A stretch of 59,790 nucleotides of DNA from assembly GCA_025927685.1 (NCBI GenBank), contig JAICKX010000005.1:1-59790 (forward strand). The letters are read 5' to 3'. The DNA comes from Thermoleophilia bacterium. Lineage in GTDB: Bacteria; Actinomycetota; Thermoleophilia; Gaiellales; JAICJC01. Below the pieces are notes generated by a model that was given only the letters and a program-made list of their open reading frames with translations, was not told where the DNA came from and did no database searches. The translations under genes were made by a program, and so were the position numbers. Of the stretch, positions 16,222 through 34,176 are shown one piece after another (position 1 is the first letter of the stretch; every line of letters begins with the position of its first letter).

Positions 16222-17172
16222 CTACACCGGGCCGGGCCGCACCCAGTCCGACTCGGGGTAGAACGCGGCGGCGGTCCGCCCCGTTCGCGCCCGCACCCGG
16301 CCGATCTCCTCGGGCGTCAGGCGCTCGTGCCACGTGCGGACGCTGGCGGCGCTGTGCCGGTGGAGGGCGTGGACGACGCCCTCGCCGGCCTCGGCCGGGT
16401 TCGACGCCGAGGTCGTCTCCGCGACGAAGCGGGCGACGCCGGCCGAGTACTCGATGCCGAGCCGGTCGCACATCGCCTCGAATCCGGCCGCCGGCGAGGT
16501 GGCGAGGTCCTCGTGGCGCACGTAGGTCCAGTCCGGGTGCACGGCCCGGTAGCGGTCGACGACCGTGTAGACGATGTCCCAGAGGAGCGCGGCCTGGTCG
16601 ACGACGTGCGGCGGCCGCCGTGCGAACTCCGCGATGTCGGCGCGCAGCTCCGGGACGAGCTCGTCCACGAGGCCCGGCTGGTCCAGGAAGTGCGAGAAGT
16701 CGTGCGTCCAGTTGAGCCGGCGCAGGCTGGCGGCGTATGCGCCCGGATGGCGGATCATCACGACGACCTGCATCCCGAACTCGCGGGCGAGCCAGGGGGC
16801 GGCGAGGACGGCGATCGGGTCCTTCATGAGCGGGCGCGCGCCCCGGATGCGGTGGGCCGCGAAGCGTGCGGCGTCGCGACCCATCCTGCCGGCGTCGCGC
16901 ACCGAGCGCAGGCGGCGGATCTCGGCTGCGTAGGAGTACCGGAACTCCAGGGTGCGGCGCAGGTCGGTGGCGAGCCCGGGCGGCGGGGTGCCGTTCGCGT
17001 AGGTGAACCAGTGCGGCACCTCTGCGCGGAACGTCCCGCGCCGGTGGCCCGGGTTGAACGGCTCGTAGATCATGCCGAGGCCGGGCGCGTGCGCCAGCGT
17101 CCGGCCGACCCACGTCGTCCCCGACCGGTTGATCCCCGTGACGAGGATCGGCGCGCGGCCCGGGTCGCTCAC
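16222..17172 (-). CDS. P-loop sulfotransferase-like protein (A)
   Basis: ILVTGINRSGTTWVGRTL PAPS-binding loop; VVVMIRHPGAYAASLRRLNW; GTG start overlapping upstream stop. Confidence 0.85.
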   Translation of the reverse strand: MSDPGRAPILVTGINRSGTTWVGRTLAHAPGLGMIYEPFNPGHRRGTFRAEVPHWFTYANGTPPPGLATDLRRTLEFRYSYAAEIRRLRSVRDAGRMGRDAARFAAHRIRGARPLMKDPIAVLAAPWLAREFGMQVVVMIRHPGAYAASLRRLNWTHDFSHFLDQPGLVDELVPELRADIAEFARRPPHVVDQAALLWDIVYTVVDRYRAVHPDWTYVRHEDLATSPAAGFEAMCDRLGIEYSAGVARFVAETTSASNPAEAGEGVVHALHRHSAASVRTWHERLTPEEIGRVRARTGRTAAAFYPESDWVRPGPV

Positions 17173-18083
17173 CAGTCCTCGGGCCCGTACATCCCGTCCG
17201 CGATCGCGGCCGTCCCGGCCCGGACGCGCTCGATCTCGTCGTCCGTGAGCCGCTTCTTCCAGTTCCACACGTGCGCCGCGCTGTCGCGCCGGATCGAGTC
17301 GGGGGTGCTGGCCTCGGCCGGGTTCGACGCGTCGGACGTCTCGGCGATCAGCGCGTCGACCCGGTCGTCGCGAGGCAGGGAGAGCCGGTCGAACAGGGCG
17401 TGGAACTCCTGGGCCGGCCGGCGCGAGATGTCCTCCAGCCGCAGGAACGGCCAATCGGGGTGGCGGGCTCGGTAGGCCGCGAGCGCGTGGTGGATCACGT
17501 TCCAGAGCAGGATCGCCTGATCGACGATCTCCTGCTCGGCACGCGCGAACGCCTCGATCTCCGCGCGGAACGGGTCGAGCCAGTCGCGCATCATGAGCGG
17601 CTGGGCGAGGAAGTGGCCGAAGGGGTGGCGGAGGTGCAGCCGCTTCACGCTCGCCGCGAACGCGGCCGGATGGCGGACGAGGAGCACCGGATCGGTGCCG
17701 AACGCCGCGTTCAGCCACTCCGCCGAGAACACCGCGATCGGGTCCTTGAGGAGCGGGATCGCGGCCGCCCGCCGGTACCGCGCGAACCGGGACGCGTCGC
17801 GTGCCATCCGGGCGGCATCCCTCGGCGAGCGCAGGCTGCGGAGCTCCGCGCCGGCCGCGTAGCGCCAGCGGAGCATCTCGGCGACCGGGCCGCGCACCGG
17901 CCCCTCGTTCTCCGCGCAGACGTAGGGGAACCAGTGCTCGAACCGGACGGCGCAGGTGCCGGGCCGGTGCAGGATGCTGAAGGGCTCCCACACGTACCCG
18001 ACCGTCTCGGGCGAGGCGGCCAGCACCTGGCCCACCCAGCCGGTGCCGGACCGGTGCGATCCCGTGACGAGGATGCTGCGCAC
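17169..18083 (-). CDS. P-loop sulfotransferase-like protein (B)
   Basis: ILVTGSHRSGTGWVGQVL; VLLVRHPAAFAASVKRLHL; collinear with A; GTG 18083 six nt after GATACT. Confidence 0.85.
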   Translation of the reverse strand: MRSILVTGSHRSGTGWVGQVLAASPETVGYVWEPFSILHRPGTCAVRFEHWFPYVCAENEGPVRGPVAEMLRWRYAAGAELRSLRSPRDAARMARDASRFARYRRAAAIPLLKDPIAVFSAEWLNAAFGTDPVLLVRHPAAFAASVKRLHLRHPFGHFLAQPLMMRDWLDPFRAEIEAFARAEQEIVDQAILLWNVIHHALAAYRARHPDWPFLRLEDISRRPAQEFHALFDRLSLPRDDRVDALIAETSDASNPAEASTPDSIRRDSAAHVWNWKKRLTDDEIERVRAGTAAIADGMYGPEDW

Positions 18084-18118
18084 CGTGGCAGTATCACGCG
18101 CCCGCGGCGCGGCTCGCG

Positions 18119-18147
18119 TTGACACTCCCACCCATCGCGCCGATACT
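18119..18147 (+). promoter_or_regulatory. Sigma-70-type promoter TTGACA-N17-GATACT for sulfotransferase C
   Basis: TTGACA 18119-18124, 17-nt spacer, GATACT 18142-18147. Confidence 0.7.
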
Positions 18148-18150
18148 CGA

Positions 18151-19041
18151 ATGGGCATGGCGACGCTCTCGCAACTGATCGCACGTCACGCCGGGGTGAA
18201 GCAGCGTGCGGTCGTCCCGGCCTACCGCGCGATGGCGCGCGCGAACGTCTTCCTGCCGGGGCCGCGGGTGTTCGCGAACAGCTTCCCCAAGGGCGGGACG
18301 CACCTGCTCTCGGCGCTCCTCGGCGAGTTGCCGCGCATGATGTTCTCGGGCGTGCACTGCGCGGCCGGAGACTTCACCGCCGGCGCTCCGCGGGCCGACG
18401 CCGAGAACATGGACTGGGACCGGCTGCGGCGCACGCTGGGGCGCGTCAACCGGGGGCAGTTCATGACCGCGCACTTCCCGTACGTCGAGGGGCTCGAGCG
18501 GGAGCTCGACGAGCTCGGGTACAGCTCGCTCCTCATCCTGCGCGATCCGCGCGACGTGGTCGTCTCGGCCCAGCACTACGTCACGAAGATGGCCTCGCAC
18601 GACCTGCACCGGCGGTTCACGGAGCAGTACCGGTCCGCCGACGAGCGGATCCGGGTCACGATCGAGGGGTTCCCGGCCAACGAGCTCGGCCGCGGCCAGG
18701 ACTCGATCGGAGAGCGGCTCGGCCGCTACCTGCCCTGGCTCTCGATGCCGGAGGTGCTGGTCGTCCGCTTCGAGGACCTGATCGGCCAGGCAGGGGGCGG
18801 GAGCCGCGAGCGCCAGGACGAGCAGGTCGAGCGCATCGCGCTGCACGTCGGCCGCCCGCTCTCACCGGAGCGGGTGCGCGCCGTGGCCGGGCGGGTGTGG
18901 TCGGACCGGAGCTCCACCTTCCGGCAGGGCCGGGCCGGCGGCTGGCGCGACGAGCTGAGCCCCGACCACATCGCCCTGTTCAAGGCGGTGGCCGGGGATC
19001 AGCTGATCGCGCTCGGCTACGAAGCCGACCTCGACTGGTAG
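18151..19041 (+). CDS. P-loop sulfotransferase-like protein (C)
   Basis: VFANSFPKGGTHLLSALL; LLILRDPRDVVVSAQHYV; start may be ATG 18157. Confidence 0.83.
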   Translation: MGMATLSQLIARHAGVKQRAVVPAYRAMARANVFLPGPRVFANSFPKGGTHLLSALLGELPRMMFSGVHCAAGDFTAGAPRADAENMDWDRLRRTLGRVNRGQFMTAHFPYVEGLERELDELGYSSLLILRDPRDVVVSAQHYVTKMASHDLHRRFTEQYRSADERIRVTIEGFPANELGRGQDSIGERLGRYLPWLSMPEVLVVRFEDLIGQAGGGSRERQDEQVERIALHVGRPLSPERVRAVAGRVWSDRSSTFRQGRAGGWRDELSPDHIALFKAVAGDQLIALGYEADLDW

Positions 19042-19054
19042 CCGTGAGGCTCGG

Positions 19055-20053
19055 CTAGCGAGCGGCCGAGAGCGTCGCGGTCGGGCCGCCGGCGACCATC
19101 TGGTCGTGGATCCACCGGTACGTGCGCTCCATCCCGTCACGCAGGCTGATCGACGGCTCCCAGTCGAGCCGCTCCAGGATGAGCGTGTTGTCGCTGTTCC
19201 GGCCGCGCACGCCCTGAGGCGCGTCGAGCTTGTAGTTGCGCTTCAGCTCGACGCCGGCGATCTCCTCGACGATCGAGACGAGCTGGTTGATCGTGACGAG
19301 CTCGGAGCTGCCGATGTTGATCGGCTCGACCACGTCGCTGTCCATGAGCCGCTGCGTCCCGTAGACGCAGTCGTCCACGTACATGAAGCTCCGCGTCTGC
19401 TCGCCGTCGCCCCAGATCTCGATCTCGTTCGAGCCCGAGAGCTTGGCCGCGACGACCTTGCGGCAGATGGCGGCGGGGGCCTTCTCGCGGCCGCCGTCGT
19501 AGGTCCCGTACGGGCCGTAGACGTTGTGGTAGCGGGCCACCCGGGTCTGGAATCCGAAGTCCTCGAGGAAATGCCGGCACATCCGCTCGCTGAAGAGCTT
19601 CTCCCACCCGTAGCCGTCCTCCGGCATAGCCGGGTAGGCATCGGCCTCGGCCAGCGCCGTGACGTCGGGCGACGTCTGGTGCTCGGCGGCGTAGACACAC
19701 GCCGACGACGAGAAGAAGAACCGGTCCACGCCGGCCTCGCGAGCGGCCATCAGCATGTGGGTGTTGATGAGCACCGACAGCATGCACAGCGCCTTGTTGT
19801 TCTCGATGAAGCCCATGCCGCCCATGTCGGCGGCGAGGTTGAACACGCGGGACGCGCCGGCCACGGCCTGCTCGCACGCTGCGCGCTCGGAGAGGTCGAG
19901 GACGAGCGACTCCGCCTCGGGCGCCACCTGATACCAGGCGTCGAGCGGCTTCATGTCGACCGCGCGGACGCGCAGGCCCTTGCCGATGAGGTCGCGCACG
20001 AGGTGGCCCCCGATGAAGCCGCCCCCGCCGCCGACGACGACGAGATCGCTCAT
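19055..20053 (-). CDS. NAD-dependent epimerase, GDP-mannose 3,5-epimerase-like
   Basis: ADMGGMGFIENNKALCMLSVLINTHML...FFFSSSACVYAAEHQ...YGWEKL...NVYGPYGTYDGGREKAPAAICRK...IEIWGDGEQTRSFMYVDD. Confidence 0.8.
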   Translation of the reverse strand: MSDLVVVGGGGGFIGGHLVRDLIGKGLRVRAVDMKPLDAWYQVAPEAESLVLDLSERAACEQAVAGASRVFNLAADMGGMGFIENNKALCMLSVLINTHMLMAAREAGVDRFFFSSSACVYAAEHQTSPDVTALAEADAYPAMPEDGYGWEKLFSERMCRHFLEDFGFQTRVARYHNVYGPYGTYDGGREKAPAAICRKVVAAKLSGSNEIEIWGDGEQTRSFMYVDDCVYGTQRLMDSDVVEPINIGSSELVTINQLVSIVEEIAGVELKRNYKLDAPQGVRGRNSDNTLILERLDWEPSISLRDGMERTYRWIHDQMVAGGPTATLSAAR

Positions 20054-20742
20054 GACGCCACCGCCTCGTCCGTGTCGACCGTCCCGGCCGCGGCCTTGTG
20101 CGGGTCGGGCAGGTGCCGGTTGAGCGCGGAGGCGATCCGCAGCGTGCCGTCGGCGTAGTCGATGACGGTCGCCGAGCCGGTCGACAGCTTGAACTGCCAG
20201 TCGCCGATCGTCGGGCCGGCGATCCGCAGGACGGCCAGGCGCACCATGGCGCCGTGGCTCACTGCGGCCACCGCCTGGCGCGGATGCCGGCGGCAGATCT
20301 CGTAGATCGCGTCGACCATGCGGTCGGCCGCGTCCGCCAGCGCTTCGCCCTCGGGGCAGGCGGCCTGCTCGGGAGCCTCGGCATAGAGGCGGAAGGCGTC
20401 CGCGTCGTGGGCGGCGCACTCCTCCTTCGTGAGGCCCTCCCAGACGCCGTAGTCGAGGTTGGTCAGCCCCTGGTGGTCGTCGACCGCCTCGAGATTCGAG
20501 GCCGCGGCGACCGCCATGGCCACCTCGCGGGCACGAGCCAGCGGGCTCGTGTAGACGGCGCTCAGCCCGGCGCCGGAGAGCTGCCGGGCGGTCGCAAGCG
20601 CCTCGGCTCGGCCGACCGCATCGAGCGGCACCTCGAGCCGGCCGCGAAACCGCACCTCGGCGTTCATCACCGTCCGCCCATGGCGGACCAGATACAACCG
20701 GCAACCGTCGTCAGCGCTCACGCCGGTATGCGCAACCGTCAT
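20050..20742 (-). CDS. Histidine phosphatase (phosphoglycerate mutase-like) protein
   Basis: LYLVRHGRTVMNAEVRFRGRLEVPLDAVG...VYTSPLARAREVA...VAAVSHGAMVR; SD GGAGGGG before ATG 20742. Tracked start at 20802 coincides with a TTGACA element. Confidence 0.88.
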   Translation of the reverse strand: MTVAHTGVSADDGCRLYLVRHGRTVMNAEVRFRGRLEVPLDAVGRAEALATARQLSGAGLSAVYTSPLARAREVAMAVAAASNLEAVDDHQGLTNLDYGVWEGLTKEECAAHDADAFRLYAEAPEQAACPEGEALADAADRMVDAIYEICRRHPRQAVAAVSHGAMVRLAVLRIAGPTIGDWQFKLSTGSATVIDYADGTLRIASALNRHLPDPHKAAAGTVDTDEAVAS

Positions 20743-20773
20743 GTTCCCCTCCCACACTTCCGCTTGACCGTCC

Positions 20774-20802
20774 AAGTGTCCCACGACCTGTCGCTCTGTC
20801 AA
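20774..20802 (-). promoter_or_regulatory. Candidate promoter TTGACA-N16-GACACT for the phosphatase/epimerase operon
   Basis: TTGACA at 20802-20797 on minus, GACACT at 20780-20775. Confidence 0.5.
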
Positions 20803-21053
20803 GCCTTACCTGGCCCGCTCACCCCCCGGCCCAGGATGACCGATTCCCGCAGCCGCGGGGCGTCGCGCTCCGCGCACAGCGTACCGCACCTTTGCGCGGG
20901 TGACGACTCCACCGACAGCGTGTACCCTCGAGGCAGTGGTGTCTGCCCCCGTCCATCGCGTGGCGTGCGTGCCCGCCCGACCCCCTTCCGTCCTCAGCGC
21001 CCCGGCGCGCTGACGGCGGCGCACGAACCGGCGGGATCGGCGATGGTGCGGCC

Positions 21054-22427
21054 ATGAGCGTGAGCGCGGAGCCGCAGGGCGTGGCGGCGACGAACGCCGC
21101 CGCGGCGATCCGGCGGCGGCTCGTGCGCGGCTCGATGACCGTGTTCGTCGGCATGGTCGCCGGCACGATCCTGACGCTGGTCTTCAACGCCATGCTCGCG
21201 CGGATGGTCTCGCACGCCACGCTGGGCGCCTACTTCCTGGTATCGAGCATGGTGGTCATCGCGTCCACGATCGGCAAGCTCGGGCTCGAGAAGACGGTCG
21301 TCCGGTTCGTCGCCGCGGCGCGCGCGACCGGGAGGCCGGGGCGCGTGCGGCGCACCGTCATCCTGGTGTTCCTCATCGGCACGGCGGCATCCGCCGCGAT
21401 CGCGGTCGTCCTCGTGCTCGGGCTCGGCCATTTCCTGGCGGTGCGCGTCTACCACTCGCAGGCCGTCGCCGGCGTCATCGCGCTTGCGGCGGTCTGGATC
21501 GGCGTGAACGCGCTGCTCTCGCTCACTGCGGAGACGTTCCGTGGGTTCAAGCGGTTCTGGCCCGCGACGCTCTACGGCGGCCTTGCAGTCGACGTCCTGC
21601 TCGTGCTCGGCTTCGGGCCGCTGTGGATCGCGGGCGTCCGGCCGAGCCTGGCCCAGGCGGTGGGCCTGACGGTCGCGATGACCGGCGTGGCCCTGGCGGT
21701 GGGCATGGCCGACCTGTGGCGCACCGTCCTGCCGTTCCGAGGCGAGGGCACGGCCGGGCTCCGGGAGGTGACCGCCGTCTCGGTGCCGCTCCTGATCTCG
21801 AACATCGCGAACTTCGCCGTGGGGACCGGGGTCGACCTCTGGGTGGTCGGGCATTTCTCGAACACCTCGGACGTGGCGCTCTACGGGGCGGCGTCCCGGC
21901 TGGTCTTCTTCGTCGCGACCCCGCTGATCGTCGTGTCGCAGGTCGTGCCTCCGATCATCGCCGAGCTGCACGCCCGCGGGGAGCGCGACCAGCTCGAGCG
22001 CACGCTGCGCGGCGTCTCGACGGTCGCCGGGCTGCCCGCTGCTCTCGTCCTGGTGGCGTTCATCGTCGCGGGCGGATTCATCCTGTCGGTCGCCTACGGC
22101 CCCTACTTCCGCGGCGCCGCCACGGTGCTCGTCATCCTGAGCGTCGCACGGCTGACGGCGGTGTGCACGGGCTCGAGCGGCGTGACGCTGATGATGACCG
22201 GCCACCAGCGCACGATGATGCTGATCACGGTGGGCAGCGGGGCCTTCGCGCTCGTCGCCGAGATCCTGCTCGCGCCCCGGTACGGCATCACCGGCGTGGC
22301 GGCCGCCACCTGCACGGCCCAGATCATGCTCAACCTCCTCCAGCTCGTGTTCGCCCGCATCCACGTCGGGATCTGGACCCACTCCCGCTTCTCGCTCGAT
22401 CCGGTCCGGGAGCTCGTCCGCGGATGA
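21054..22427 (+). CDS. Polysaccharide flippase (Wzx/MATE-like), multi-pass membrane protein
   Basis: About 12 hydrophobic segments; LGAYFLVSSMVVIASTIGKLGLEKTVVRFV; VALYGAASRLVFFVATPLIVVSQVVPPIIAELHARG. Confidence 0.85.
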   Translation: MSVSAEPQGVAATNAAAAIRRRLVRGSMTVFVGMVAGTILTLVFNAMLARMVSHATLGAYFLVSSMVVIASTIGKLGLEKTVVRFVAAARATGRPGRVRRTVILVFLIGTAASAAIAVVLVLGLGHFLAVRVYHSQAVAGVIALAAVWIGVNALLSLTAETFRGFKRFWPATLYGGLAVDVLLVLGFGPLWIAGVRPSLAQAVGLTVAMTGVALAVGMADLWRTVLPFRGEGTAGLREVTAVSVPLLISNIANFAVGTGVDLWVVGHFSNTSDVALYGAASRLVFFVATPLIVVSQVVPPIIAELHARGERDQLERTLRGVSTVAGLPAALVLVAFIVAGGFILSVAYGPYFRGAATVLVILSVARLTAVCTGSSGVTLMMTGHQRTMMLITVGSGAFALVAEILLAPRYGITGVAAATCTAQIMLNLLQLVFARIHVGIWTHSRFSLDPVRELVRG

Positions 22428-22528
22428 GGAGGGCGCTCCAGGCCCTCTCGGATCTGGTGGACGCCGCCGATCGGGCCGTGCAGCGCGCGATCCGCGGATA
22501 CGTGAGGATCACGGACCGGCGTGGCTGA
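22424..22528 (+). CDS. Candidate 34-aa small ORF overlapping both neighbours
   Basis: ATGA overlap with flippase stop; stop at 22526-22528 inside the start of sulfotransferase D; MRRALQALSDLVDAADRAVQRAIRGYVRITDRRG. Confidence 0.35.
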   Translation: MRRALQALSDLVDAADRAVQRAIRGYVRITDRRG

Positions 22529-23387
22529 GGGCCGGCCGCACTCCGGCGACCGGACGGCGATCTTCCTGCACGTCGGGAAGACCGCGGGCTGGACGCTGCG
22601 CCAGATCCTCTACCGCAACGTGCCGCGCCGCGAGGTGATGCGCGTCCGCCCACCGAAGGACCGGCCGCGCGGCTTCCTGAACGACGATCCGCTGCGCGCG
22701 TTCGCGGCGCTGCCGGAGGCCGACCGGGCCCACCCGCGGCTGCTCGTGAGCCACATGATCTTCGGCATCCACGAGTCGGTGCCGCGCGAGTCCACCTACT
22801 TCACGATGCTCCGCGAGCCGGCCGCCCGCGCGCTCTCGCAGTACCGGCATGTCCTCCGTCGCCCCGAGCACCGGCTGCACGCGGCGGCCGCTGCCGGCGA
22901 GCTCTCGCTGGAGCGCTACGTCACCGGCGGCGTGGCGCTCGAGATGGACAACGGGCAGACGCGGGCGATCGCGGGCGACATCGAGACCCCGTTCGGGCAG
23001 TGCACGCCGGAGATGCTCGAGCGGGCGAAGCGGAACCTCGACCGGCACTTCGCCGTCGCCGGCGTGACCGAGCGCTTCGACGAGATGCTGGTCGCCCTCG
23101 GGCGTGAGTTCGGCTGGCGGAACCTGTTCTACGTGCGGGCGAACGCGGCCCCCGAGGGCCAGCGCGTGCCGGTGACCGAGGCCGACCGCGAGATGATCCG
23201 CGCGCACAACGTCTTCGACTGCGAGCTCTACCGCCACGTCGTGGAGCGCTTCGACGAGATGGTGGCCCGCGATCCCGGGTTCCCGTCCGACCTGCGCAGG
23301 TTCCAGCGTGGAAACCGGCTCTACCGCCCCTGGGGGCGCATCTCCTACGGGACGAAGCAGGCCGCCGTGCGGCGCACCAGGTCCTGA
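22521..23387 (+). CDS. Sulfotransferase family 2-like protein (D)
   Basis: IFLHVGKTAGWTLRQIL; YFTMLREPAARALSQYRHV; LEMDNGQTRAIAGD. Confidence 0.85.
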   Translation: MAEGRPHSGDRTAIFLHVGKTAGWTLRQILYRNVPRREVMRVRPPKDRPRGFLNDDPLRAFAALPEADRAHPRLLVSHMIFGIHESVPRESTYFTMLREPAARALSQYRHVLRRPEHRLHAAAAAGELSLERYVTGGVALEMDNGQTRAIAGDIETPFGQCTPEMLERAKRNLDRHFAVAGVTERFDEMLVALGREFGWRNLFYVRANAAPEGQRVPVTEADREMIRAHNVFDCELYRHVVERFDEMVARDPGFPSDLRRFQRGNRLYRPWGRISYGTKQAAVRRTRS

Positions 23388-24140
23388 TCAGGGCGGCGCG
23401 CCGATGAGCGACTCGTAGAGCGCGGCCGCCCGCCTGCGGACCGGGGCCAGGTCGGGCGCCTCGAGCGTGTGCCGGAGCGCCTCCTTGGCCGCCTGGCGCT
23501 CGACGGTCGGCCGGCCGAAGTGGAGGCTCGGGCGCCCCTGGTCGACGTGCCGCCGCCACATCTCCTCCTGCACGCGCTTGTCGAACTCCTCGGTTTTCGG
23601 CGGCGGCGTGAACGACGTTCCGAACTTCGCGTTCAGGCGCTCGATCGCACCGCCGTAGTCGCGGTCGAGCTCCTCCACCGAGATCACGATGACGTCGCCC
23701 GCGACCTCCGCCACGCCGCGGTGGAAGCGGATCCAGGCGTCCAGGATCGTCCGCGCGCTGAGGCCGGGGTGACGGACCATGTGCGAGATCGCCACGTCGT
23801 CGGGCTTCTTCACGATCACGATGGTCGGCAGGCCGAGCCGCGCGGCCCTCACGACCTGCGCGGACGCGTGCGTGTGATGGGCCGAGCGCACCGGCCGGTC
23901 CTGGGCGAGCTCGAGACAGACGACCGCGTACGACGACGCCGACCGCCCGAACCCCTCGATCACGATCTCGGTGTCGGCGCCGATCAGCCGGTCCGGCCGG
24001 TCGCGGTGCTTCCAGGCGATCAGCCGCAGGTAGGGCTGATAGCAGTTGAGGCGGTAGCGCAGCCGGTAGCGGGCGTTCGTCGCTCGGCTCGCCGCCGCCG
24101 CCCGCCCGCTCCCGGGCAGTGATCGTTCCGTCTGTCCCAC
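23388..24140 (-). CDS. P-loop sulfotransferase-like protein (E)
   Basis: IVIEGFGRSASSYAVVCLEL; TIVIVKKPDDVAISHMVRHPG. Confidence 0.65.
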   Translation of the reverse strand: MGQTERSLPGSGRAAAASRATNARYRLRYRLNCYQPYLRLIAWKHRDRPDRLIGADTEIVIEGFGRSASSYAVVCLELAQDRPVRSAHHTHASAQVVRAARLGLPTIVIVKKPDDVAISHMVRHPGLSARTILDAWIRFHRGVAEVAGDVIVISVEELDRDYGGAIERLNAKFGTSFTPPPKTEEFDKRVQEEMWRRHVDQGRPSLHFGRPTVERQAAKEALRHTLEAPDLAPVRRRAAALYESLIGAPP

Positions 24141-24156
24141 AGCGCCTGCAGGCTAG

Positions 24157-24489: not shown

Positions 24490-24529
24490 TCCTTCGCCGC
24501 CCGATGCATCGCCGCGGACGCCACACGTC

Positions 24530-24559: not shown

Positions 24560-24567
24560 GCTCGCGC

Positions 24568-26262: not shown

Positions 26263-26359
26263 CTACCCGTCCCCCTGAAGTTCAGTCGTACGTCACGGGA
26301 CGGGCAGGGCCGCCCCCTCGGCGCAGGTCTACGTCCCGCTCCTTGCGCACCTGCGCGCA

Positions 26360-26388
26360 AGGGTACGGTGCCTGGGAGAACCTGTCAA
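26360..26388 (-). promoter_or_regulatory. Promoter TTGACA-N17-TACCCT for the FnIII-phosphoesterase gene
   Basis: TTGACA 26388-26383, 17-nt spacer, TACCCT 26365-26360; -35 overlaps the stop of sulfotransferase F. Confidence 0.7.
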
Positions 26389-27245
26389 GCGCCGCCGTCC
26401 TCGGCGTAGAGGTCGCGGACCTCGGGCTTGATGCGGCGCTTGATCGCCGACGGCCACGTGTACGTGACCCGTCCCCACGTCCGGTAGCGGTGGTTCGCCC
26501 GGGCAAACCGCTCGAGCTCGTCTGCGAAGCCGTCCTCGGCGGCGATCCGGGTGTCCATGATCTGCTGTGCGTGCTCGTAGAGCTGCATGTCGAGCCAATT
26601 GGCGCGCTCGAGGAGCTCGCGCTGGGGCGGCGTCAGCTCGGCCCGCGAGCGCGAGACGTTGCGGCTCACGTAGCGCACGTCGCGCCAGTCGAACGTCCGC
26701 CGGAGCAGGAGGAGCGATTCGTCGAAGCGCTCGGTGATTCCGAACCACGAGAAGTGCTCGTCGAGGTTCCGCTTTGCGACCTCGAGCATCTCCTCGGTGC
26801 ACTCGCCGACGGGCGTGCCCAGGTCGCCGGCGATCGCTCGCGTCTGGCTGTTGTCCATCTCGAACGAGATCCTGCTCGCGACGTACTCCTCGAGCGTGAG
26901 GTCCTTCACGGCCTCGTGGTGGTGGTGCGACGGGATCCGCTGGACATAGCGGTACTGCGAGAAGGCGAGCTTCACCGGATGGCGGAGCATCGTGATGTAG
27001 GTGCAGGGGCGCGGCACGCCCTCGTGCAGGCCGTACACGGTGTGGCCCATGATCAGCCGCGGCCGCACCCGGTCCTCCGCGGGGAGGCGCGCGAAGTCGG
27101 CGATCGTGTCCGTCCGCGGCCGGCGACGGGCGCGGACGGTCAGCGTCTGGGAGGAGGGGAACTGGCGCTTCAGCACCTGCCGCAGCGTCGATCCGGCCGT
27201 CTTGCCGATGTGCAGGAAGATGACAGTGCGGTCGTCGCCGGTCAT
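26385..27245 (-). CDS. Sulfotransferase family 2-like protein (F), paralogue of D
   Basis: IFLHIGKTAGSTLRQVL; TMLRHPVKLAFSQYRYV; FEMDNSQTRAIAGD. Confidence 0.85.
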   Translation of the reverse strand: MTGDDRTVIFLHIGKTAGSTLRQVLKRQFPSSQTLTVRARRRPRTDTIADFARLPAEDRVRPRLIMGHTVYGLHEGVPRPCTYITMLRHPVKLAFSQYRYVQRIPSHHHHEAVKDLTLEEYVASRISFEMDNSQTRAIAGDLGTPVGECTEEMLEVAKRNLDEHFSWFGITERFDESLLLLRRTFDWRDVRYVSRNVSRSRAELTPPQRELLERANWLDMQLYEHAQQIMDTRIAAEDGFADELERFARANHRYRTWGRVTYTWPSAIKRRIKPEVRDLYAEDGGA

Positions 27246-28222
27246 CTGCCCGACGCCGGGTTCGGGTGCGAGGGCGAGCCGGCCGTCTCCGGTGCCCGCG
27301 GAGCGCTCAGGTTCCAAGGGGTCCTCCTCTGCGTGTACCCATACAGTCTGCGGGCGGCATCCGAAGCGAGCAAGGCCCCGCCGGTGCGAATCGACGACAG
27401 CTCGTGCTCGATCTCGGCCGCGTCGTAGCCCATCGCCCCCATCCGGTCCGGCCCGACGAACCGCAGATATCCGGCGCACCAGCGCTTCCGCAGCGGGTTG
27501 CGCATGGTCTCGCGCCAGCGGCTGACGGACTCCTCGGTCACCGTGTCGTAGCGCTTGCGCCCGGTGCGGTCGCCCATCCGTCCGGCCAGGTCGACCTCGG
27601 TGAACCGCGTCGCCGTGTCGCCGGCGGGCGGGAGGTCCAGGAACTCGAAGATGCCGGCGGTCACGCCCTCGGGGTCGGCCACGAGGTCCTCGTAGCGGAT
27701 CGAGCGCGCGCGGGGGTCGTTCCGGGCCTGCGCGGCGACCAGCCGGTCGAGCCCTCCGTAGAGGTCGACGCCGTAGCGGTCGATGTTCCAGTGGCCGCGG
27801 CCGAACGAGTCGACCACCGAGGCCGCCACGGCGAGCGGATGGCGCCACAGGAACACGAACCGCGCGCCGGGGAAGAGCTCCATGATCTCGTCCACGACCA
27901 GGTGGTAGCGCGGCGTCTTGTCGACGAACCAGGTCGCGCCGCCGGCCGCCTGCTCGTACAGCGCGAGCACCGTCCGCCGCACCTCCTCGAGGTAGGCGGC
28001 GCGGCCGCCGGGGAGGACGTCGCAGAAGTCGTGCAGCGCCCGGGCGGCGGTGCGGTGGCCGTACTCGGCCTGCGCGTCGTACGGCCGAAGCGCGTAGAGC
28101 TGCGGGAGGAGGATCCACGGCTCGGACGACGTGGCCACCTCGGGGTGCGTCGCCAGCATCCGCTGGAGCAGCGTCGAGCCGCTCCTCGGGAGCGACAGCA
28201 CGAAGAGGGGGCGGACGCTCAT
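27242..28222 (-). CDS. P-loop sulfotransferase-like protein (G)
   Basis: LFVLSLPRSGSTLLQRML; FVFLWRHPLAVAASVVDSF. Confidence 0.87.
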   Translation of the reverse strand: MSVRPLFVLSLPRSGSTLLQRMLATHPEVATSSEPWILLPQLYALRPYDAQAEYGHRTAARALHDFCDVLPGGRAAYLEEVRRTVLALYEQAAGGATWFVDKTPRYHLVVDEIMELFPGARFVFLWRHPLAVAASVVDSFGRGHWNIDRYGVDLYGGLDRLVAAQARNDPRARSIRYEDLVADPEGVTAGIFEFLDLPPAGDTATRFTEVDLAGRMGDRTGRKRYDTVTEESVSRWRETMRNPLRKRWCAGYLRFVGPDRMGAMGYDAAEIEHELSSIRTGGALLASDAARRLYGYTQRRTPWNLSAPRAPETAGSPSHPNPASGR

Positions 28223-29118
28223 GCCACCGCCGGATAGCAGGCGACGCGCACGCGCTCCCAGTCGCGGGCGGCGTCGTCCGACCGGAACCAGCGCAGGTCG
28301 GCGCCGTGGACGCGCTTCCCCCGCGCCTGCCGGGTGTACGCCCCGTCGGCCACCTTCAGGAGGCCGTGGGCGATGTGGCCGGCCCGGCGCATGCGCATCG
28401 CGCCGTAGCGGTCGCGCACCATGTCGTACTCGCGCCCGAAGCCGTCGCCCCGGTTCAGGCGCTGGAAGAACCCGCGCCGCTCGGTCGCGGTGACGCGGGT
28501 GTCGTGGGCCCGGAAGACGCCGATGGGCGCCTCGACGAAGCGGAACCCGGCTCCCTCTCGGAGGAGGCGCAGGTACAGGTCCCAGTCCATCATCCGCCGC
28601 ATCTGGACGTCGATCGGGTCGGCACCGAGCGCCGACGTGCGGACGATCGACGAGACCGTGCTGATGAAGCATCCGTACGAGCGCAGCACGAACGGCGAGA
28701 ACCGGTGCTGCGGCAGGAGGCGCGTGAGCCGGCCGTCGCCGTCGGAGAAGAGCGTGTCGCCGTAGACCACGTCCGCTCCCGTCCGGTCGCCCTCGCGCAC
28801 GAGCGCGGCGAGGCCGCCGGGCAGGTAGAACTCGTCGGCGTTCAGCCACGCGATCCAGCGCCCACGAGCACGGGCGATGCCGCGGTTCAGGGCGTCGGAC
28901 TGGCCCTCGTCGGGCTCGGAGCTCCAGTCGACCGCGTTGCCCAGGTCCTGGAGGAGCTCGACGGTCCCGTCGGTCGAGCCGCCGTCCTGGATCACGTGCT
29001 CGACGGTGATGCCGCGCTGCGCAGCCACGCTGTCGATGGCGTCCCGCAGGTAGTGCGCATAGCCGTAGGACGGCGTCACCACGCTGACGTCGGGCACCGG
29101 CTGCCCCTCGGATGGCAT
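28219..29118 (-). CDS. Glycosyltransferase family 2
   Basis: VSVVTPSYGYAHYLRDAIDSV...VIQDGGSTDGTVELL...ALNRGIARARGRWIAWLNADEFYLPGGL. Confidence 0.9.
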   Translation of the reverse strand: MPSEGQPVPDVSVVTPSYGYAHYLRDAIDSVAAQRGITVEHVIQDGGSTDGTVELLQDLGNAVDWSSEPDEGQSDALNRGIARARGRWIAWLNADEFYLPGGLAALVREGDRTGADVVYGDTLFSDGDGRLTRLLPQHRFSPFVLRSYGCFISTVSSIVRTSALGADPIDVQMRRMMDWDLYLRLLREGAGFRFVEAPIGVFRAHDTRVTATERRGFFQRLNRGDGFGREYDMVRDRYGAMRMRRAGHIAHGLLKVADGAYTRQARGKRVHGADLRWFRSDDAARDWERVRVACYPAVA

Positions 29119-29126
29119 CGGCGTCG

Positions 29127-30488
29127 TCAGGGGGCCGGGTCCGTGGTGAGCCGGGACCGCCAGCCGGGGGGATAGGCCATCGCGATCAGGCTGAAGATCA
29201 GGATGCCCTTCTCCCAGGTGCTGAACGCCCAGGGGTAGACGGTGCAGATGACGACGAAGTTCCCGAGCAGGAACGCCCCGCCGCCGAAGGCGAGGAGGTC
29301 CGAGATCCGTCCCCGGCGCCGGCGGCGCCAGATGTCGCGGAAGAGGACGAAATACGTGGCGAAGAAGATGATGAGGCCGAGGATGCCGAACTTGATCCAC
29401 ACCTCGATCGGGGCGTTGTGCACCATCCCGGCGTCGCCCTTCCAGGTCGCCGACCGGGTCGGGTGGTAGAGGACGCCCGCGCCGAGCCCGGTGACGGGGT
29501 TGGCCCGGACCTGGTCCCAGCCGTCCAGGATGTCGTCGATATGCCCCTGGTTCGTCGTGGCGTAGACGTTCTCGGCCCGGGTCTGGGTGGGATCGAGGCT
29601 GGCGAGGCGGCTGCCCCAGTCGAGGGCGGACCAGGTCGCGACGACCGTGATGATCCCGACGACGCCGACGGCCGCGATCGAGGCGAGGTAGCGCCGGCGG
29701 TTGGCGCCAGAGAGCATGACGAACGCCGCGAACACGGTGGCCAGCTCGACCCAGGCATACCGCCGGAACGCGAGGATGACCACGGCCGTCCCGACGATGA
29801 TGCCGGCCATCCACAGGAACCGTGTTCGCCGCGTTCTGAGCATCGCCATCGAGATCCCGACGGCGGCGACCATGAACTCCAGCGTGGCGTGGTCGCCGCT
29901 GGTCGTCCGCCCGTAGAAGGCGATCTCGCCCCCGCCCTTGGCGTAGTTCATCAGCTGGTCGACGCCGTAGACCGCCATGATGGCGACGAAGATCTGGGCG
30001 AACCGGAAGCAGTCGCGCTCGGTCTGGAGGATCGTCGACCAGAGGCCGAAGGCGAACAGGAGGCCGATCGCCAGGTAGCGCCAGTCGCCGAACGGGCTCG
30101 GTGTGGAGTTCAGGAGCCCGACTGCGACGCCCAGCGTCACGGCCACGACGCCGAGCCCGATGAGCCACGCCGTGCGCGTGTGGAGGTGCATGCGCCGCGA
30201 CGAGAGCCGCGCCACGGCGCCGATGTAGGCGAAGCCGATCACGGCCAGGTCGCCGGGCGTGAGCTGGCCGAACTTCTGCTGGTCCCACCAGGAGGGCCCG
30301 TAGTTCGTGATGGTGCCGTTGCGGATCGCGAACCGGACGCCGGGATCGGCGGTCCGCGAGTGGAAGTAGATCGCCGTGAAGATGATGAACGCGGCGAAGC
30401 ACCAGCCCGCAAAGCGGGCGATGTCGGCGGGCTCCGTCGTCGCCGAGACCGGGCGGGCGGTCGGCCGGCGGTCGAGGGCGACGCTCAT
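29127..30488 (-). CDS. O-antigen ligase/polymerase (Wzy/WaaL-like) membrane protein
   Basis: Many TM segments; VTGLGAGVLYHP...GDAGMVHNAPIEVWIKFGILGLIIFFATYFVLF; ATG at 30488. Confidence 0.8.
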   Translation of the reverse strand: MSVALDRRPTARPVSATTEPADIARFAGWCFAAFIIFTAIYFHSRTADPGVRFAIRNGTITNYGPSWWDQQKFGQLTPGDLAVIGFAYIGAVARLSSRRMHLHTRTAWLIGLGVVAVTLGVAVGLLNSTPSPFGDWRYLAIGLLFAFGLWSTILQTERDCFRFAQIFVAIMAVYGVDQLMNYAKGGGEIAFYGRTTSGDHATLEFMVAAVGISMAMLRTRRTRFLWMAGIIVGTAVVILAFRRYAWVELATVFAAFVMLSGANRRRYLASIAAVGVVGIITVVATWSALDWGSRLASLDPTQTRAENVYATTNQGHIDDILDGWDQVRANPVTGLGAGVLYHPTRSATWKGDAGMVHNAPIEVWIKFGILGLIIFFATYFVLFRDIWRRRRRGRISDLLAFGGGAFLLGNFVVICTVYPWAFSTWEKGILIFSLIAMAYPPGWRSRLTTDPAP

Positions 30489-31705
30489 CCGCCGACTCCC
30501 GTCGAGACCGGGGCGGCCGCCGGCGTTCCGGGACGGGCCGGGGTGTAGATCTCGAGCAGCCGCTCGACCGTGGCGCGCGGCGTCAGGGCGCGCTCGTACT
30601 CGCGGCGGGCCCCCTCCCCGAGCCGGCGCGCCTCCGCGAGGTCGCCGGCAAGGCGGCGCAGGGCCGCGGCGAGGCCGTCGGCATCCTCCGGCTCGAACAG
30701 GATGCCCGTCGCGCCGTCGTGCACGATCTCGGCGAGGCTCCCGAGCCGCGATGCGACCACCGGGATGCCCAGGGCGTACGCCTCGGCCACGATGCGGGGG
30801 AAGACCTCGTACCACCGGGACGGGACGATGAGCGCGCGGGCCTCGCCGAGGATGCGAAGGCCGTCGGCGCGTGGCAGCTGTCCGGTGAGCTCGACCCCGG
30901 CCAGCGATTCGGCGCGCCGGCGCAGGTCGGCCTCGAGCTCGCCTGATCCGACCACGCGGAGCCGCTCGCCGCCGTCCGGGAACGCCCGCCCCCAAGCGTC
31001 GAGCAGCAGGTCGACGCCCTTCTCCGGGTACAGCCGCGAGAGACACAGAAAGCCACCGCCGTACTCCGGCTCGGGCCGGCCGGGGTCGGGCGCCGTGTTG
31101 TACTTGACGGTGATCCGCTCGCCCGGCCAGCCGGCCTTCACGTAGCGGCTGCGCGCGAACTCCGACGGCGTGATGTAGGTGTCCACCGCCGAGCTCCACG
31201 TGCCGATCGCCGAGTGGAACGCGTCCTTCACGGCGATCGGGAGCGTCGCGGTCCGCGAGGAGCGGTAGCAGCCGTGGACGACGGCCGGCACCGGCGCCCG
31301 GCCCAGGCAGTCCTCGCACACGCGCCCGTCGCGCAGGAACGTCGCCGCCGGGCACAGCGGCCGGAAGTTGTGCAGCGTCTGGACGACGCGCACACCTTCG
31401 CCGTGGGCCGCCCGCAGCGCCGCGGGGCTGAGGAGCGGGAACGTGTTGTGGAAGTGCACGACGTCGGGCCTGAAGCCCCTGACCGCGCGCCGCACCGTCC
31501 GCGCACCGTCGCGCGACCACACCACCCGGCCCGGGAGGGTCAGGCGCTTGGCGGCGGGCCAGCCGGCGATGTCGTCGCTCTCGGCGGTCAGGAGCTCGAC
31601 CACGACTCCGGCGTCGCGGAGGAGCGCGGTCTCCTCCTCGACCACGGCGTTCTCACCGCTGGGCTGGGCGCTCCGGTAGCGGTTGTGCACGACCAGGACG
31701 CGCAT
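30485..31705 (-). CDS. Glycosyltransferase family 4
   Basis: MRVLVVHNRYRSAQPSGENAVVEEE...FLCLSRLYPEKGVDLLLDAW...ALIVPSRWYEVFPRIVAEAYALGIPVVAS. Confidence 0.92.
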   Translation of the reverse strand: MRVLVVHNRYRSAQPSGENAVVEEETALLRDAGVVVELLTAESDDIAGWPAAKRLTLPGRVVWSRDGARTVRRAVRGFRPDVVHFHNTFPLLSPAALRAAHGEGVRVVQTLHNFRPLCPAATFLRDGRVCEDCLGRAPVPAVVHGCYRSSRTATLPIAVKDAFHSAIGTWSSAVDTYITPSEFARSRYVKAGWPGERITVKYNTAPDPGRPEPEYGGGFLCLSRLYPEKGVDLLLDAWGRAFPDGGERLRVVGSGELEADLRRRAESLAGVELTGQLPRADGLRILGEARALIVPSRWYEVFPRIVAEAYALGIPVVASRLGSLAEIVHDGATGILFEPEDADGLAAALRRLAGDLAEARRLGEGARREYERALTPRATVERLLEIYTPARPGTPAAAPVSTGVGG

Positions 31706-31708
31706 GCA

Positions 31709-32512
31709 TCACCGGGACGGCCGGCCCGCGCCGACCGTGTCGCGGGTCACCTCGGCGATCGTGCTGGCGATGAAGAGCGTGTTCGCCGCCGCGTACCTGG
31801 GCGCGAGCTTGAGCGGGTCGTGCACCATGCGATGCACCCACTCGAGGCCCGAGTCCTGCATCCACATGGGAGCGCGAGGGCGGTTGCCGGAGATGAAGTC
31901 GAACGCCGCGCCGACGCCCATGGCGAGCACGGCGCCGAGGTCGGGCGAGAGCCGGTGCATCCACAGGTCCTGCTTGGGAGTCCCCAGGCCGACCCAGACG
32001 ATGTGGGGCGAGACGGCGGAGATCGCCGCCACCGCCTCGCGCTCCTCCGGCGCGTTCATCGCCCGGAACGGGGGCGAAGCCGTGCCGACGATCTGCGCGC
32101 CGGGGAACCGCTCGAGCAGGTTCGCCTCCAGCCGCTCCAGCACGGCGGGCGTCGCGCCGAAGAGGTAGTGGCGCAGGCCGTGCTCGCGGCCGCGGTCGAT
32201 CACGAGCGGCATCAGGTCGGGCCCGGCGATCCGCTTGGCGTGCCGGACGCCGTTTCGGCGCTGGCGCCACGCGACCGGCGCGCCGTCGGGGAAGTTCACC
32301 CACGCCTCGTGCAGGGCGTGCCGCAGGCCCGGGTCGCGCTGGGCGAGCGTCAGCCCGTGGACGCCCGTCAGGGAGGCGTATCCGCCCTGTCCGGAGAGTG
32401 CCCGCTCGATGACGGACCGGGACGCCTCGTCGAGGTCACCGGCGAACAGCTCGGTGCCCATCACGATGCACGTCGGGTGTCGGTTGCCGGTGCCCGTCAT
32501 CGCACCGGTCAT
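31709..32512 (-). CDS. WecG/TagA/CpsF family glycosyltransferase
   Basis: VHGLTLAQRDPGLRHAL...FPDGAPVAWRQRRNG...RIAGPDL...VWVGLGTPKQDLWM...AVLAMGVGAAFDFISGNRPRAPMWMQDSGLEWVHRM. Confidence 0.93.
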   Translation of the reverse strand: MTGAMTGTGNRHPTCIVMGTELFAGDLDEASRSVIERALSGQGGYASLTGVHGLTLAQRDPGLRHALHEAWVNFPDGAPVAWRQRRNGVRHAKRIAGPDLMPLVIDRGREHGLRHYLFGATPAVLERLEANLLERFPGAQIVGTASPPFRAMNAPEEREAVAAISAVSPHIVWVGLGTPKQDLWMHRLSPDLGAVLAMGVGAAFDFISGNRPRAPMWMQDSGLEWVHRMVHDPLKLAPRYAAANTLFIASTIAEVTRDTVGAGRPSR

Positions 32513-34176
32513 CGACTGGCGCGCGTTCTCGCCGTCTGGTCCGTCTGGCTGCCGTAGCCGCCGTAGCCGTAGCCGCCGCCGTAGCCATAGCCGGACTCCG
32601 CCTCGGCGTCGGTCACGACCACGCCGAGCCCGAGGGCGCGCGCGGTCCCGAGCTCACGCCGCATCTCGTGCAGCATCGGTCGCCGGATGAGATCGAGCTT
32701 GGAGACGACGACGTACGCGTCGGCCTGGGACGTGAGGCCCATGGTGTCGGCGACCGGCAGGACCGGCGGGGTGTCGATCACGACCATCTCGGCTCGCTCG
32801 CGCAGCTCGGAGAGCACCGTCGCGAGCGACTGTGACGCCAGCAGCGCCGACGGGTCGGACGGCGGCTCGCCGGCCACCAGCACGTGGAGCAGCGACCCGT
32901 GCGACGAGTGGCCGTGGCCGTTGCGGCGCGCGCCCGGGTCGGGGGCGCCGGGGACGACGACCGGCACGAGCGCCTCGTCGAGCGACGCGTTTCCGAGCAC
33001 GACGTCCGTGACGCCCGGGCGGCCGGTGAGGCCGAAGAAGCGGTCGAGGTACGGCGCGCGGAGGTCGAGGTCGACGAGCACGACGTTCTTGCCCGCGGCC
33101 GCCATCGCGACCGCCAGGTTGGCGGCGGTCGTCGACTTGCCCTCCTGCGCGACCGCGCTGGTCACGAGGATCATCTGGGCCTGCGGGTCGAGGTTCGCGA
33201 AGTCGAGGCTCACCCTGAGCTTCTTGTAGGCCTCGCTGTGGATCCCGTGCGGGTCGGCGAGCAGGGTCAGCTGGTCGTGCCTTCGCATGTCCTTGTCCGG
33301 GCGTGGCAGGCGGCCGAAGAGCGGCAGGCCGAGCTCCGACGCGACCTGCTCGGCCGAGCGGACGCGGGTGTCGAAGGCCTCGCGGGCGAAGACGAGCCCG
33401 ATTCCGAGCACGAGGCCCAGAATGATCCCGACCGCCGTGTTGCGCTTCGTGTTCGGGGCGAGCTGGGCCGCGCCCGAGGCTTCGCTCTGGACGCGGCTCT
33501 GGCCGAGGTTGTCCTGGGTGCTGGCCTTCAGGTCCGAGACGGCCAAGTCCGCGTCCGCTGCCTTCCTGATCAGCGAGCGGTACGTGGATTCGTCTTGCGT
33601 GGGATCAGTGCCGAGCTGCTTGTCGGTCTGGATCTGCTGGAAGGCGCGATCGGCTTGGTTATGCAGGTCGTCCGCGTGCGCCTGTGCTGTGGCGATCCGG
33701 TGCTGGGTCTGCTTCACGACGAGGTTGTGGCTGTAGGTCGCGAACGCATGCGCGTACGAGTTCGTCAGGAGGACTGCGCCGTCGCGTGTGTGGTAGCTCA
33801 CGCTGAACGAGACGATCGTCGCGACCGGATCGGCCGTGATGGTCGACGCCTTCAGGAGCTTGCGGGGCGTCATGTCCTTGATCTGCGGCGCGAGCGCCAG
33901 TGCCGCCGCCGCCACGTCTGGGCTCTGCGCGATCGCCGCCTGGGTGTTGACGTACTGGGTGATCTGGCTCGACGACGTCTTCTGGTTCGGGTCGAACGTC
34001 GGAGCGACGATCAGATCGTTGGCCGTCGCCTGGAAGCTCGGCTTCTGCTTCGACGACACGAAGTACGTAGCTCCGGCCACGATGAGGACAGTCGCGACGA
34101 CGATCCACCATCCTTTTTTGATGGTGCGAACGTAGTCGGCCATGGGGCGGCCCGGGCGCCCAATTTCGTCGATCAC
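32509..34176 (-). CDS. Wzz-type chain-length determinant fused to BY-kinase
   Basis: N-terminal Wzz TM region; MILVTSAVAQEGKSTTAANLAVAMA Walker A; VVLVDLDLRAP; EMVVIDTPPVL; Tyr-rich tail GYGYGGGYGYGGYG. Confidence 0.92.
   Translation of the reverse strand: MIDEIGRPGRPMADYVRTIKKGWWIVVATVLIVAGATYFVSSKQKPSFQATANDLIVAPTFDPNQKTSSSQITQYVNTQAAIAQSPDVAAAALALAPQIKDMTPRKLLKASTITADPVATIVSFSVSYHTRDGAVLLTNSYAHAFATYSHNLVVKQTQHRIATAQAHADDLHNQADRAFQQIQTDKQLGTDPTQDESTYRSLIRKAADADLAVSDLKASTQDNLGQSRVQSEASGAAQLAPNTKRNTAVGIILGLVLGIGLVFAREAFDTRVRSAEQVASELGLPLFGRLPRPDKDMRRHDQLTLLADPHGIHSEAYKKLRVSLDFANLDPQAQMILVTSAVAQEGKSTTAANLAVAMAAAGKNVVLVDLDLRAPYLDRFFGLTGRPGVTDVVLGNASLDEALVPVVVPGAPDPGARRNGHGHSSHGSLLHVLVAGEPPSDPSALLASQSLATVLSELRERAEMVVIDTPPVLPVADTMGLTSQADAYVVVSKLDLIRRPMLHEMRRELGTARALGLGVVVTDAEAESGYGYGGGYGYGGYGSQTDQTARTRASR

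Follow-up and report, generated by a model that had tools for sequence, protein, structure and literature searches.

Animals, algae and cyanobacteria are the best-known sources of heavily sulfated sugars. In a soil Thermoleophilia bacterium, however, seven sulfotransferase-like genes (A-G) accompany genes for Wzx, Wzy, Wzz/BY-kinase, WecG, GT4 and GT2 (Table 1). Are the seven products really sulfotransferases, and do they act on the polysaccharide that their neighbors would make? The window analyzed here is a stretch of 59,790 nucleotides from a metagenome-assembled genome that is 81.5% complete; gene families, motifs, the operon, PAPS genes and recurrence in relatives were read from sequence. 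Our answer is that the region is probably a Wzx/Wzy-dependent exopolysaccharide (EPS) locus in which PAPS-dependent sulfotransferases add sulfate to the repeat unit at several sites.

Table 1. Features of the locus in order of position in the window
Feature	Position	Strand	Evidence	Remark
GH26-like secreted glycoside hydrolase	15253..16152	-	phmmer vs PDB: Endoglucanase H (GH26) 2.3e-8 to 1.4e-7, residues 138-296	
Sulfotransferase A (Sulfotransfer_3)	16222..17172	-	PF13469 8e-11, 43 bits (cut-off 27)	motifs NRSGTTW / IRHPGAYAAS
Sulfotransferase B (Sulfotransfer_3)	17169..18083	-	PF13469 5.6e-7, 30.5 bits, above cut-off	motifs HRSGTGW / VRHPAAFAAS
Sulfotransferase C (Sulfotransfer_1)	18151..19041	+	PF00685 3.6e-10, 40.1 bits (cut-off 22)	motifs PKGGTHL / LRDPRDVVVS
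GDP-mannose 3,5-epimerase	19055..20053	-	phmmer vs PDB 8sg0 5.1e-91; Arabidopsis GME 2c59 3.7e-88	
Histidine phosphatase	20050..20742	-	PF00300 9.8e-47	overlaps epimerase gene
Wzx-type flippase (Polysacc_synt)	21054..22427	+	PF01943 7.4e-15	
Sulfotransferase D (Gal-3-O-sulfotransferase)	22521..23387	+	PF06990 1.4e-13, 51 bits (cut-off 27)	
Sulfotransferase E	23388..24140	-	AlphaFold pLDDT 92.8; Foldseek	family without Pfam model
Secreted calcineurin-like (purple-acid-phosphatase-like) metallophosphoesterase with fn3	24568..26262	-	fn3 1.1e-11; Metallophos 5.8e-5	
Sulfotransferase F (Gal-3-O-sulfotransferase)	26385..27245	-	PF06990 1.1e-16, 61.2 bits	last gene of operon
Sulfotransferase G (Sulfotransfer_3)	27242..28222	-	PF13469 2.9e-38, 132.8 bits	
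GT2 glycosyltransferase	28219..29118	-	PF00535 1.2e-24	
Wzy / O-antigen ligase-type polymerase (Wzy_C)	29127..30488	-	PF04932 5.3e-13	
GT4 glycosyltransferase	30485..31705	-	PF13692 3.6e-28	
WecG/TagA/CpsF (GT26) glycosyltransferase	31709..32512	-	PF03808 1.5e-53; TIGR00696 above cut-off	
Wzz chain-length regulator fused to BY-type tyrosine autokinase	32509..34176	-	TIGR01007 4.8e-32, above cut-off; Wzz 4.8e-5	first gene of operon

Layout of the locus

Wzx, Wzy, Wzz/PCP and glycosyltransferases, the set that marks a Wzx/Wzy-dependent EPS locus, are all present. An earlier note, made from the DNA letters alone, had listed the seven ORFs and named their neighbors as Wzz/BY-kinase, WecG, GT4, GT2, O-antigen ligase and flippase; all seven ORFs are in place, and profile matches returned the same neighbors. 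The operon it proposed is also borne out: wzz-wecG-GT4-wzy-GT2-G-F form a single run with junctions of -4, +3, -4, +8, -4 and -4 bases. Its ratio of two sulfotransferases to one glycosyltransferase holds across the entire 18 kb, which spans several transcription units, but not for the tight operon, where there are three glycosyltransferases to two sulfotransferases. A-B, C, D and E belong to units that are separate or run on the opposite strand, and the gaps reach several hundred bases. Scans for promoters and terminators gave figures close to chance.

The GH26-like gene, absent from the earlier list, is at the region edge, 69 bases from A; its product had no match in a Pfam search. Also new is the identity of the epimerase, which is nearer to GME than to other short-chain epimerases (5.1e-91 vs 2.5e-30 for the next group) and whose predicted role is to supply GDP-L-galactose / GDP-L-gulose. 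The histidine phosphatase was considered as a PAP phosphatase and set aside; PF00459 genes elsewhere in the genome could serve. The metallophosphoesterase has a weak carbohydrate-binding match (CBM_4_9, 0.0012, below cut-off) and a PDB match to purple acid phosphatase (7.9e-6).

The sulfotransferases and the family of protein E

Six of the seven proteins (A, B, C, D, F and G) score above curated Pfam cut-offs for sulfotransferases. The motifs on which the assignment was originally based also hold up: each of the seven retains a 5' loop containing R/K as well as the 3' motif [R/K]-x-P-(x5)-S, in which the basic residue and the Ser are spaced by 8; in C a His sits 23 residues ahead of the 3' Arg. 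A and B are 46% identical, the start of A overlapping the end of B by 4 bases. In the PDB, F matches heparan sulfate 6-O-sulfotransferase 3 (5t03, 1.6e-8), and G matches the CurM sulfotransferase (2.8e-10) and tyrosylprotein sulfotransferase (6e-5). An AlphaFold model of F, with D as sole partner sequence, had a pLDDT of 42.5 and was set aside. The seven window enzymes very probably add sulfate groups.

E is the most novel element of the locus. It had no match in a Pfam search, and sulfotransferase models match none of its 35 aligned homologues (36-member alignment); nor did searches of PDB sequences, with E singly and as a profile, give anything significant (the sulfotransferase StaL came up at E 0.75 and was disregarded). 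In Foldseek, however, the 50 best PDB matches of E are all sulfotransferases (best E 3.1e-5), with TM of 0.36-0.49, so that E appears to be a diverged version of the sulfotransferase fold. The best fold matches are to cytosolic sulfotransferases (SULT), in which the spacings from His to basic residue and from basic residue to Ser equal those of E. Unlike SULT, E is smaller, has Lys for Arg in this member and shows no detectable sequence similarity to them. The Lys, in the 3' motif where at least 90% of the family has Arg, is a conservative change.

Contigs were scanned for the E family with alignment A1, the wider alignment A2 being without a sufficiently conserved stretch. In Nocardioides and Kribbella, ATP sulfurylase sits in the same operon as E-family genes; at loci L053, L105, L110, L111 and L114 a histidine phosphatase adjoins the E-family gene. 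Because the family is unrecognized by Pfam, widespread, and found in operons with ATP sulfurylase, E probably belongs to a group not yet described as a sulfotransferase family. Such a possible new enzyme family could also provide sulfotransferases for the synthesis of sulfated glycans. The fold matches and the operons led us to reject the idea that E is some other kind of P-loop protein. A larger proposal, which we advance tentatively and would not yet bet on, is that E founds an undescribed sulfotransferase family, distributed across Actinobacteria, Proteobacteria, Rhodothermia, Cyanobacteria and Planctomycetes and coupled in some genomes to dedicated PAPS-synthesis genes. In soil actinobacteria E would then act together with the six other sulfotransferases and the GDP-mannose 3,5-epimerase to make an exopolysaccharide that contains L-galactose and carries multiple sulfates, the bacterial equivalent of sulfated galactans from algae or animals.

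Sulfate supply, recurrence and rival readings

As first noted, the window has no PAPS-synthesis and no phosphoglycosyltransferase gene, but both kinds occur elsewhere in the genome. Contig C128 carries ATP sulfurylase, APS kinase and, adjoining the latter, PAPS reductase; next to these genes is a second EPS cluster, which contains a sulfotransferase and a phosphoglycosyltransferase of its own. The idea that the genome cannot make PAPS was accordingly rejected. PAPS also serves cysteine synthesis, as the PAPS reductase beside APS kinase indicates, so PAPS genes alone are not specific for sulfation. Candidates for the initiating phosphosugar transferase are two PF02397 genes (C5, C128) and two PF00953 genes (C181, C51).

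How might the pathway run? Most likely an enzyme encoded elsewhere, either a housekeeping GlcNAc-1-P transferase or a phosphoglycosyltransferase, would begin an undecaprenyl-linked unit, which WecG, GT4 and GT2 would lengthen. One of the sugars may be L-galactose, for which the local 3,5-epimerase would convert GDP-mannose. Sulfotransferases of at least four sequence families would then sulfate the unit in the cytoplasm with PAPS from the C128 ATP sulfurylase and APS kinase, after which Wzx would flip it and Wzy and Wzz/BY-kinase would polymerize it. We infer in this scheme the sulfation of the polymer, the acceptor sugars, the order of steps, and whatever roles the phosphatases and the GH26-like enzyme have.

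Are such clusters conserved? Sulfotransferase and EPS parts recur in relatives, but the exact seven-sulfotransferase cluster does not, and an F-type relative was found in one of 60 related genomes. Congeners G001/G002 have E, another sulfotransferase, the epimerase, WecG, GT4 and Wzz, in a content and order that differ from those of the window. A third EPS cluster of the source genome, on contig C118 (wzz-alg14-alg13-ST-wzy-ST-ST-wzx), counts three sulfotransferases in its eight genes, and its synteny extends to two congeners, which makes three species of the genus. The C128-type arrangement, with PAPS genes beside an EPS cluster containing a sulfotransferase, is repeated in G003 and G004 (three genomes in total), and in G009 and G018, from another family, a sulfotransferase and PAPS genes are linked.

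Several observations were counted against the main reading: A/B, C, D and E do not belong to the tight operon and might act on other glycans, on lipids or on small molecules; the fold matches of E have TM <0.5; the genome is incomplete; and the seven-sulfotransferase set is not conserved. The separate units and their gaps would fit a narrower scheme, unlikely but to be taken seriously, in which only G and F sulfate the exopolysaccharide and A/B, C, D and E act on other acceptors (glycolipids, other cell-wall glycans, metabolites). The genome indeed has sulfotransferases apart from EPS genes (C113, C172, C95, C54), and Sulfotransfer_3 and Sulfotransfer_1 include small-molecule enzymes, G for example resembling CurM. 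Against this, D and the operon gene F share 48-50% identity, and homologues of B, C, G and E co-occur with EPS genes in unrelated genomes: L095 has E, GT4, G-like and B-like genes together, L096 has Wzx, two C-like genes, a G-like gene and E, and L097 has WecG, GH26-like, C-like, Wzz, E and GT4 genes plus three more sulfotransferases.

The differences between G001/G002 and the window, which are usual for EPS loci, could also mean that the polysaccharide is unsulfated and the sulfotransferases are passengers of an often reshuffled region. We think this improbable, since three separate EPS clusters in the genome carry sulfotransferases, the C118 cluster keeps its three in synteny across species, and three genomes have PAPS genes joined to a sulfotransferase-bearing EPS cluster. 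There is least to be said for A-G being other P-loop enzymes or inactive paralogues: the missing Pfam match of E, its Lys for the 3' Arg and its low TM would suit this, but the six profile assignments, the matches to heparan sulfate and tyrosine sulfotransferases, the uniform fold matches of E and the coupling of its family to ATP sulfurylase make it very hard to credit. Family, motif, fold and neighborhood evidence agree in supporting A-G as PAPS-dependent sulfotransferases that work with the Wzx/Wzy exopolysaccharide system.

Significance and comparison with known systems

According to PMC8205485 and PMC13390465, bacterial sulfated polysaccharides are known only from cyanobacteria; a sulfated Vibrio capsule has since been solved (PMC11641403). 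Our literature searches turned up no work on sulfotransferases in Thermoleophilia or Gaiellales; on L-galactose in bacterial EPS they returned only unrelated papers, judged by title. The seven window enzymes, with PAPS genes elsewhere in the genome, suggest that land-living actinobacteria also make heavily sulfated sugars. Sulfotransferase-rich EPS clusters occur in several related soil actinobacteria, one of them adjoining PAPS-synthesis genes, so that cultured relatives with the E-type operon, e.g. Kribbella antiqua, can be used to test the question.

Synechan (xss) of Synechocystis PCC 6803 is a Wzx/Wzy-dependent EPS with in-cluster sulfotransferases of distinct subfamilies, whose sulfate was found chemically; its cyanobacterial cluster has two sulfotransferases to eight glycosyltransferases, and the available text does not mention PAPS genes (PMC8205485). 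In the capsule locus of Vibrio sp. KMM 8419, PAPS-synthesis and sulfotransferase genes lie together inside the polysaccharide locus, a proposed hallmark (PMC11641403) that is seen in the C128 cluster but not in the window; that locus has three sulfotransferases, is ABC-transporter dependent and belongs to a Gram-negative marine host (PMC11641403). D and F resemble Gal-3-O-/heparan sulfate O-sulfotransferases (PF06990, HS6ST3), both being above the PF06990 cut-off and F aligning with HS6ST3, but are bacterial and short.

The closest parallel is wps-1 of Actinoplanes missouriensis, which comprises Wzx/Wzy/Wzz, GT2, WecG (GT26), a GH26 enzyme and sulfotransferases of two families, one of them heparan-sulfate-type (PMC13390465, 2026); a nearby ATP sulfurylase/APS kinase gene is needed for the same phenotype (PMC13390465). 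The locus has GT2, WecG, Wzx, Wzy, Wzz, sulfotransferases from two or more families and, at its edge, the GH26-like gene. It differs in having seven sulfotransferases rather than two, in adding the GDP-mannose 3,5-epimerase and the E-type protein, in having its PAPS genes on another contig, and in its Thermoleophilia host. By analogy of gene content as described, the locus is best read as an enlarged variant of the wps-1 cluster.

Sulfotransferases and polysaccharide genes of the locus

The window is one contig of a draft genome (3.34 Mb, 198 contigs, 81.5% complete; contig C176), and its same-family relatives are Thermoleophilia MAGs. The earlier note had described seven sulfotransferase-like ORFs, A to G, each with a P-loop and a downstream basic motif. 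All were confirmed, with scores that mark them as coding; 7/7 have an R/K-containing 5' loop and the 3' motif R/K-x-P-x5-S, and six exceed Pfam cut-offs (see table). A and B are 46% identical and D and F 48-50%, the other pairs not being close copies, which makes a minimum of four sequence families. In a search of solved structures F matched heparan sulfate 6-O-sulfotransferase 3 (1.6e-8), and G matched the CurM sulfotransferase and tyrosylprotein sulfotransferases.

The genes for Wzz/BY-kinase, WecG, GT4, Wzy, GT2, G and F, said to be close or overlapping, indeed form one run, in which the junctions measure -4 to +8 bases; a metallophosphoesterase gene follows 122 bases further on. Wzx is encoded upstream of D, on the strand opposite to this run. 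A metallophosphoesterase gene repeatedly adjoins sulfotransferase genes, and D and E stand tail to tail (23387/23388), with zero bases between their stop codons. The epimerase gene clearly encodes a GDP-mannose 3,5-epimerase (5e-91, against 2.5e-30 for the next group); homologues occur in the corresponding clusters of two related genomes (G001, G002), and another, 70% identical, adjoins an E-family gene in a different family of the class (L048/L072). This identity and recurrence suggest that the product contains L-galactose or L-gulose. The data show the protein families, the motifs, the operon, the predicted fold of E, PAPS synthesis genes in the genome and the parts recurring elsewhere; from these we infer sulfate on the window's polymer, the site of action of each enzyme and the roles of the two phosphatases.

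Sulfotransferase genes and associated features (L, fetched loci; G, genomes, G000 being the window's own; C, contigs)
Feature	Location	Remark
A, B, G	16222..17172 (-), 17169..18083 (-), 27242..28222 (-)	Pfam Sulfotransfer_3, over curated cut-off
C	18151..19041 (+)	Pfam Sulfotransfer_1, over curated cut-off
D, F	22521..23387 (+), 26385..27245 (-)	Pfam Gal-3-O-sulfotransferase, over curated cut-off
E	23388..24140 (-)	
GH26-like gene	15253..16152 (-)	resembles GH26 endoglucanase H
Epimerase	19055..20053 (-)	
Metallophosphoesterase	24568..26262 (-); L071:7529-9579; L125:4963-6666	beside A-like sulfotransferase (L071), E-like (L125)
Histidine phosphatase, E-type, ATP sulfurylase	L111:4089-9366; L105:334-3023; L114:5154-7786	Kribbella (L111), Nocardioides (L105, L114); apparent single operon
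Third EPS cluster, wzz-alg14-alg13-ST-wzy-ST-ST-wzx	L019:5290-13536 (G000:C118); L057:3543-11812; L058:7998-16317	three of the eight genes encode sulfotransferases (ST); synteny across three species, incl. G001, G002
Tandem arrays of several Sulfotransfer_3 genes	G084:C4:156577-168129; G200:C108:3673-9412; G214:C193:39272-51002	another family of the class
Sulfatase-like protein, alkaline phosphatase superfamily	L016:13411-14640	between EPS and PAPS genes

Protein E and its family

E has no match in Pfam or NCBIfam, and none of its 35 homologues from public genomes matches a sulfotransferase model. In the family alignment H89 and H91 are invariant, an R-S-A-N-T-F-like loop is conserved, and R is almost invariant at the 3' site, where E itself has K111. 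The basic residue follows the histidines by 22/20 positions and precedes Ser by 8, distances that we take to resemble those of classical sulfotransferases (SULT numbering). Foldseek, proposed earlier as a check, was run on an AlphaFold2 model of E (pLDDT 92.8, pTM 0.89); the best 50 PDB matches were solely sulfotransferases, many PAP-bound (best E-value 3.1e-5, probability 1.00). TM scores against these are only 0.36-0.49, and the predicted sulfotransferase fold is therefore a diverged, compact version.

Gene neighborhoods point the same way. In Nocardioides a histidine phosphatase gene is followed by E and then ATP sulfurylase, these two overlapping; in Kribbella antiqua the series is histidine phosphatase, GT4, E, ATP sulfurylase, beside a convergent gene with an APS-kinase-like domain. 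Possible substrates of the phosphatase are PAP and a sugar phosphate. By manual count, the fetched DNA of 13 of the 37 E-family loci also contains a PAPS-synthesis gene or a further sulfotransferase; chance would give about two sulfotransferases in as much DNA, even if they were as dense as in the window's sulfotransferase-rich genome. That figure is rough, and the loci are not independent. From motif spacing, predicted fold, operons and linkage, E is very likely a sulfotransferase of an undescribed, probably new family, which adds to the interest of the locus. Two or three tandem E-family copies occur in some actinobacterial MAGs (L100, L101, L102, L103).

Conservation, PAPS synthesis and other clusters

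When conservation was checked, the window's cluster as such proved not to be kept in congeners. In G001 and G002 a related group of genes, comprising those for epimerase, WecG, a membrane polymerase-like protein, GT4, Wzz, E and a sulfotransferase, lies at a different place, adjoining a DNA polymerase gene. D/F-type proteins are rare (1/60 relatives; 19/396 genomes of the phylum, the window's included); PF13469 occurs in at least 143 of 299 genomes of the class, the window's being among the richer in the matches listed.

The reported lack of PAPS synthesis and initiating transferase genes holds for the window but not for the genome. Contig C128 encodes phosphoadenylyl-sulfate reductase, APS kinase and ATP sulfurylase (NCBIfam matches), together with TauE-like transporters and dTDP-rhamnose genes (both named by reading) and a second EPS cluster (Wzz, GT4, sulfotransferase, FemAB-like protein, phosphoglycosyltransferase, GT2, Wzy; mostly named by reading). 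Further initiating-type enzymes are a phosphoglycosyltransferase on C5 and two PF00953 enzymes on C181 and C51. G003 and G004 share this arrangement of PAPS genes with an EPS cluster; in G009 and G018, members of a different family, APS kinase and ATP sulfurylase accompany a related sulfotransferase. The sulfatase-like protein appears by eye to have Thr at the nucleophile position, vs Cys/Ser in sulfatases. That sulfotransferases outnumber glycosyltransferases is clearest in the third cluster, on C118, and does not apply to the window's operon.

Comparison with known systems

Whether soil actinobacteria make sulfated EPS is a current question, for which the literature searched yielded one published candidate. 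This is wps-1 of Actinoplanes missouriensis, the closest published case, which contains GT2, WecG, GH26, Wzx, Wzy, Wzz and two sulfotransferases of different families, with an ATP sulfurylase/APS kinase gene nearby; its sulfated EPS is, like that of the window cluster, a prediction only (PMC13390465). Synechan is a chemically analysed Wzx/Wzy example with two sulfotransferases to eight glycosyltransferases (PMC8205485), and the capsule locus of Vibrio KMM 8419 combines PAPS genes and sulfotransferases with proven sulfate (PMC11641403). Given these parallels, the window cluster is an enlarged version of a known type of system, new in its enlarged make-up but not in kind.
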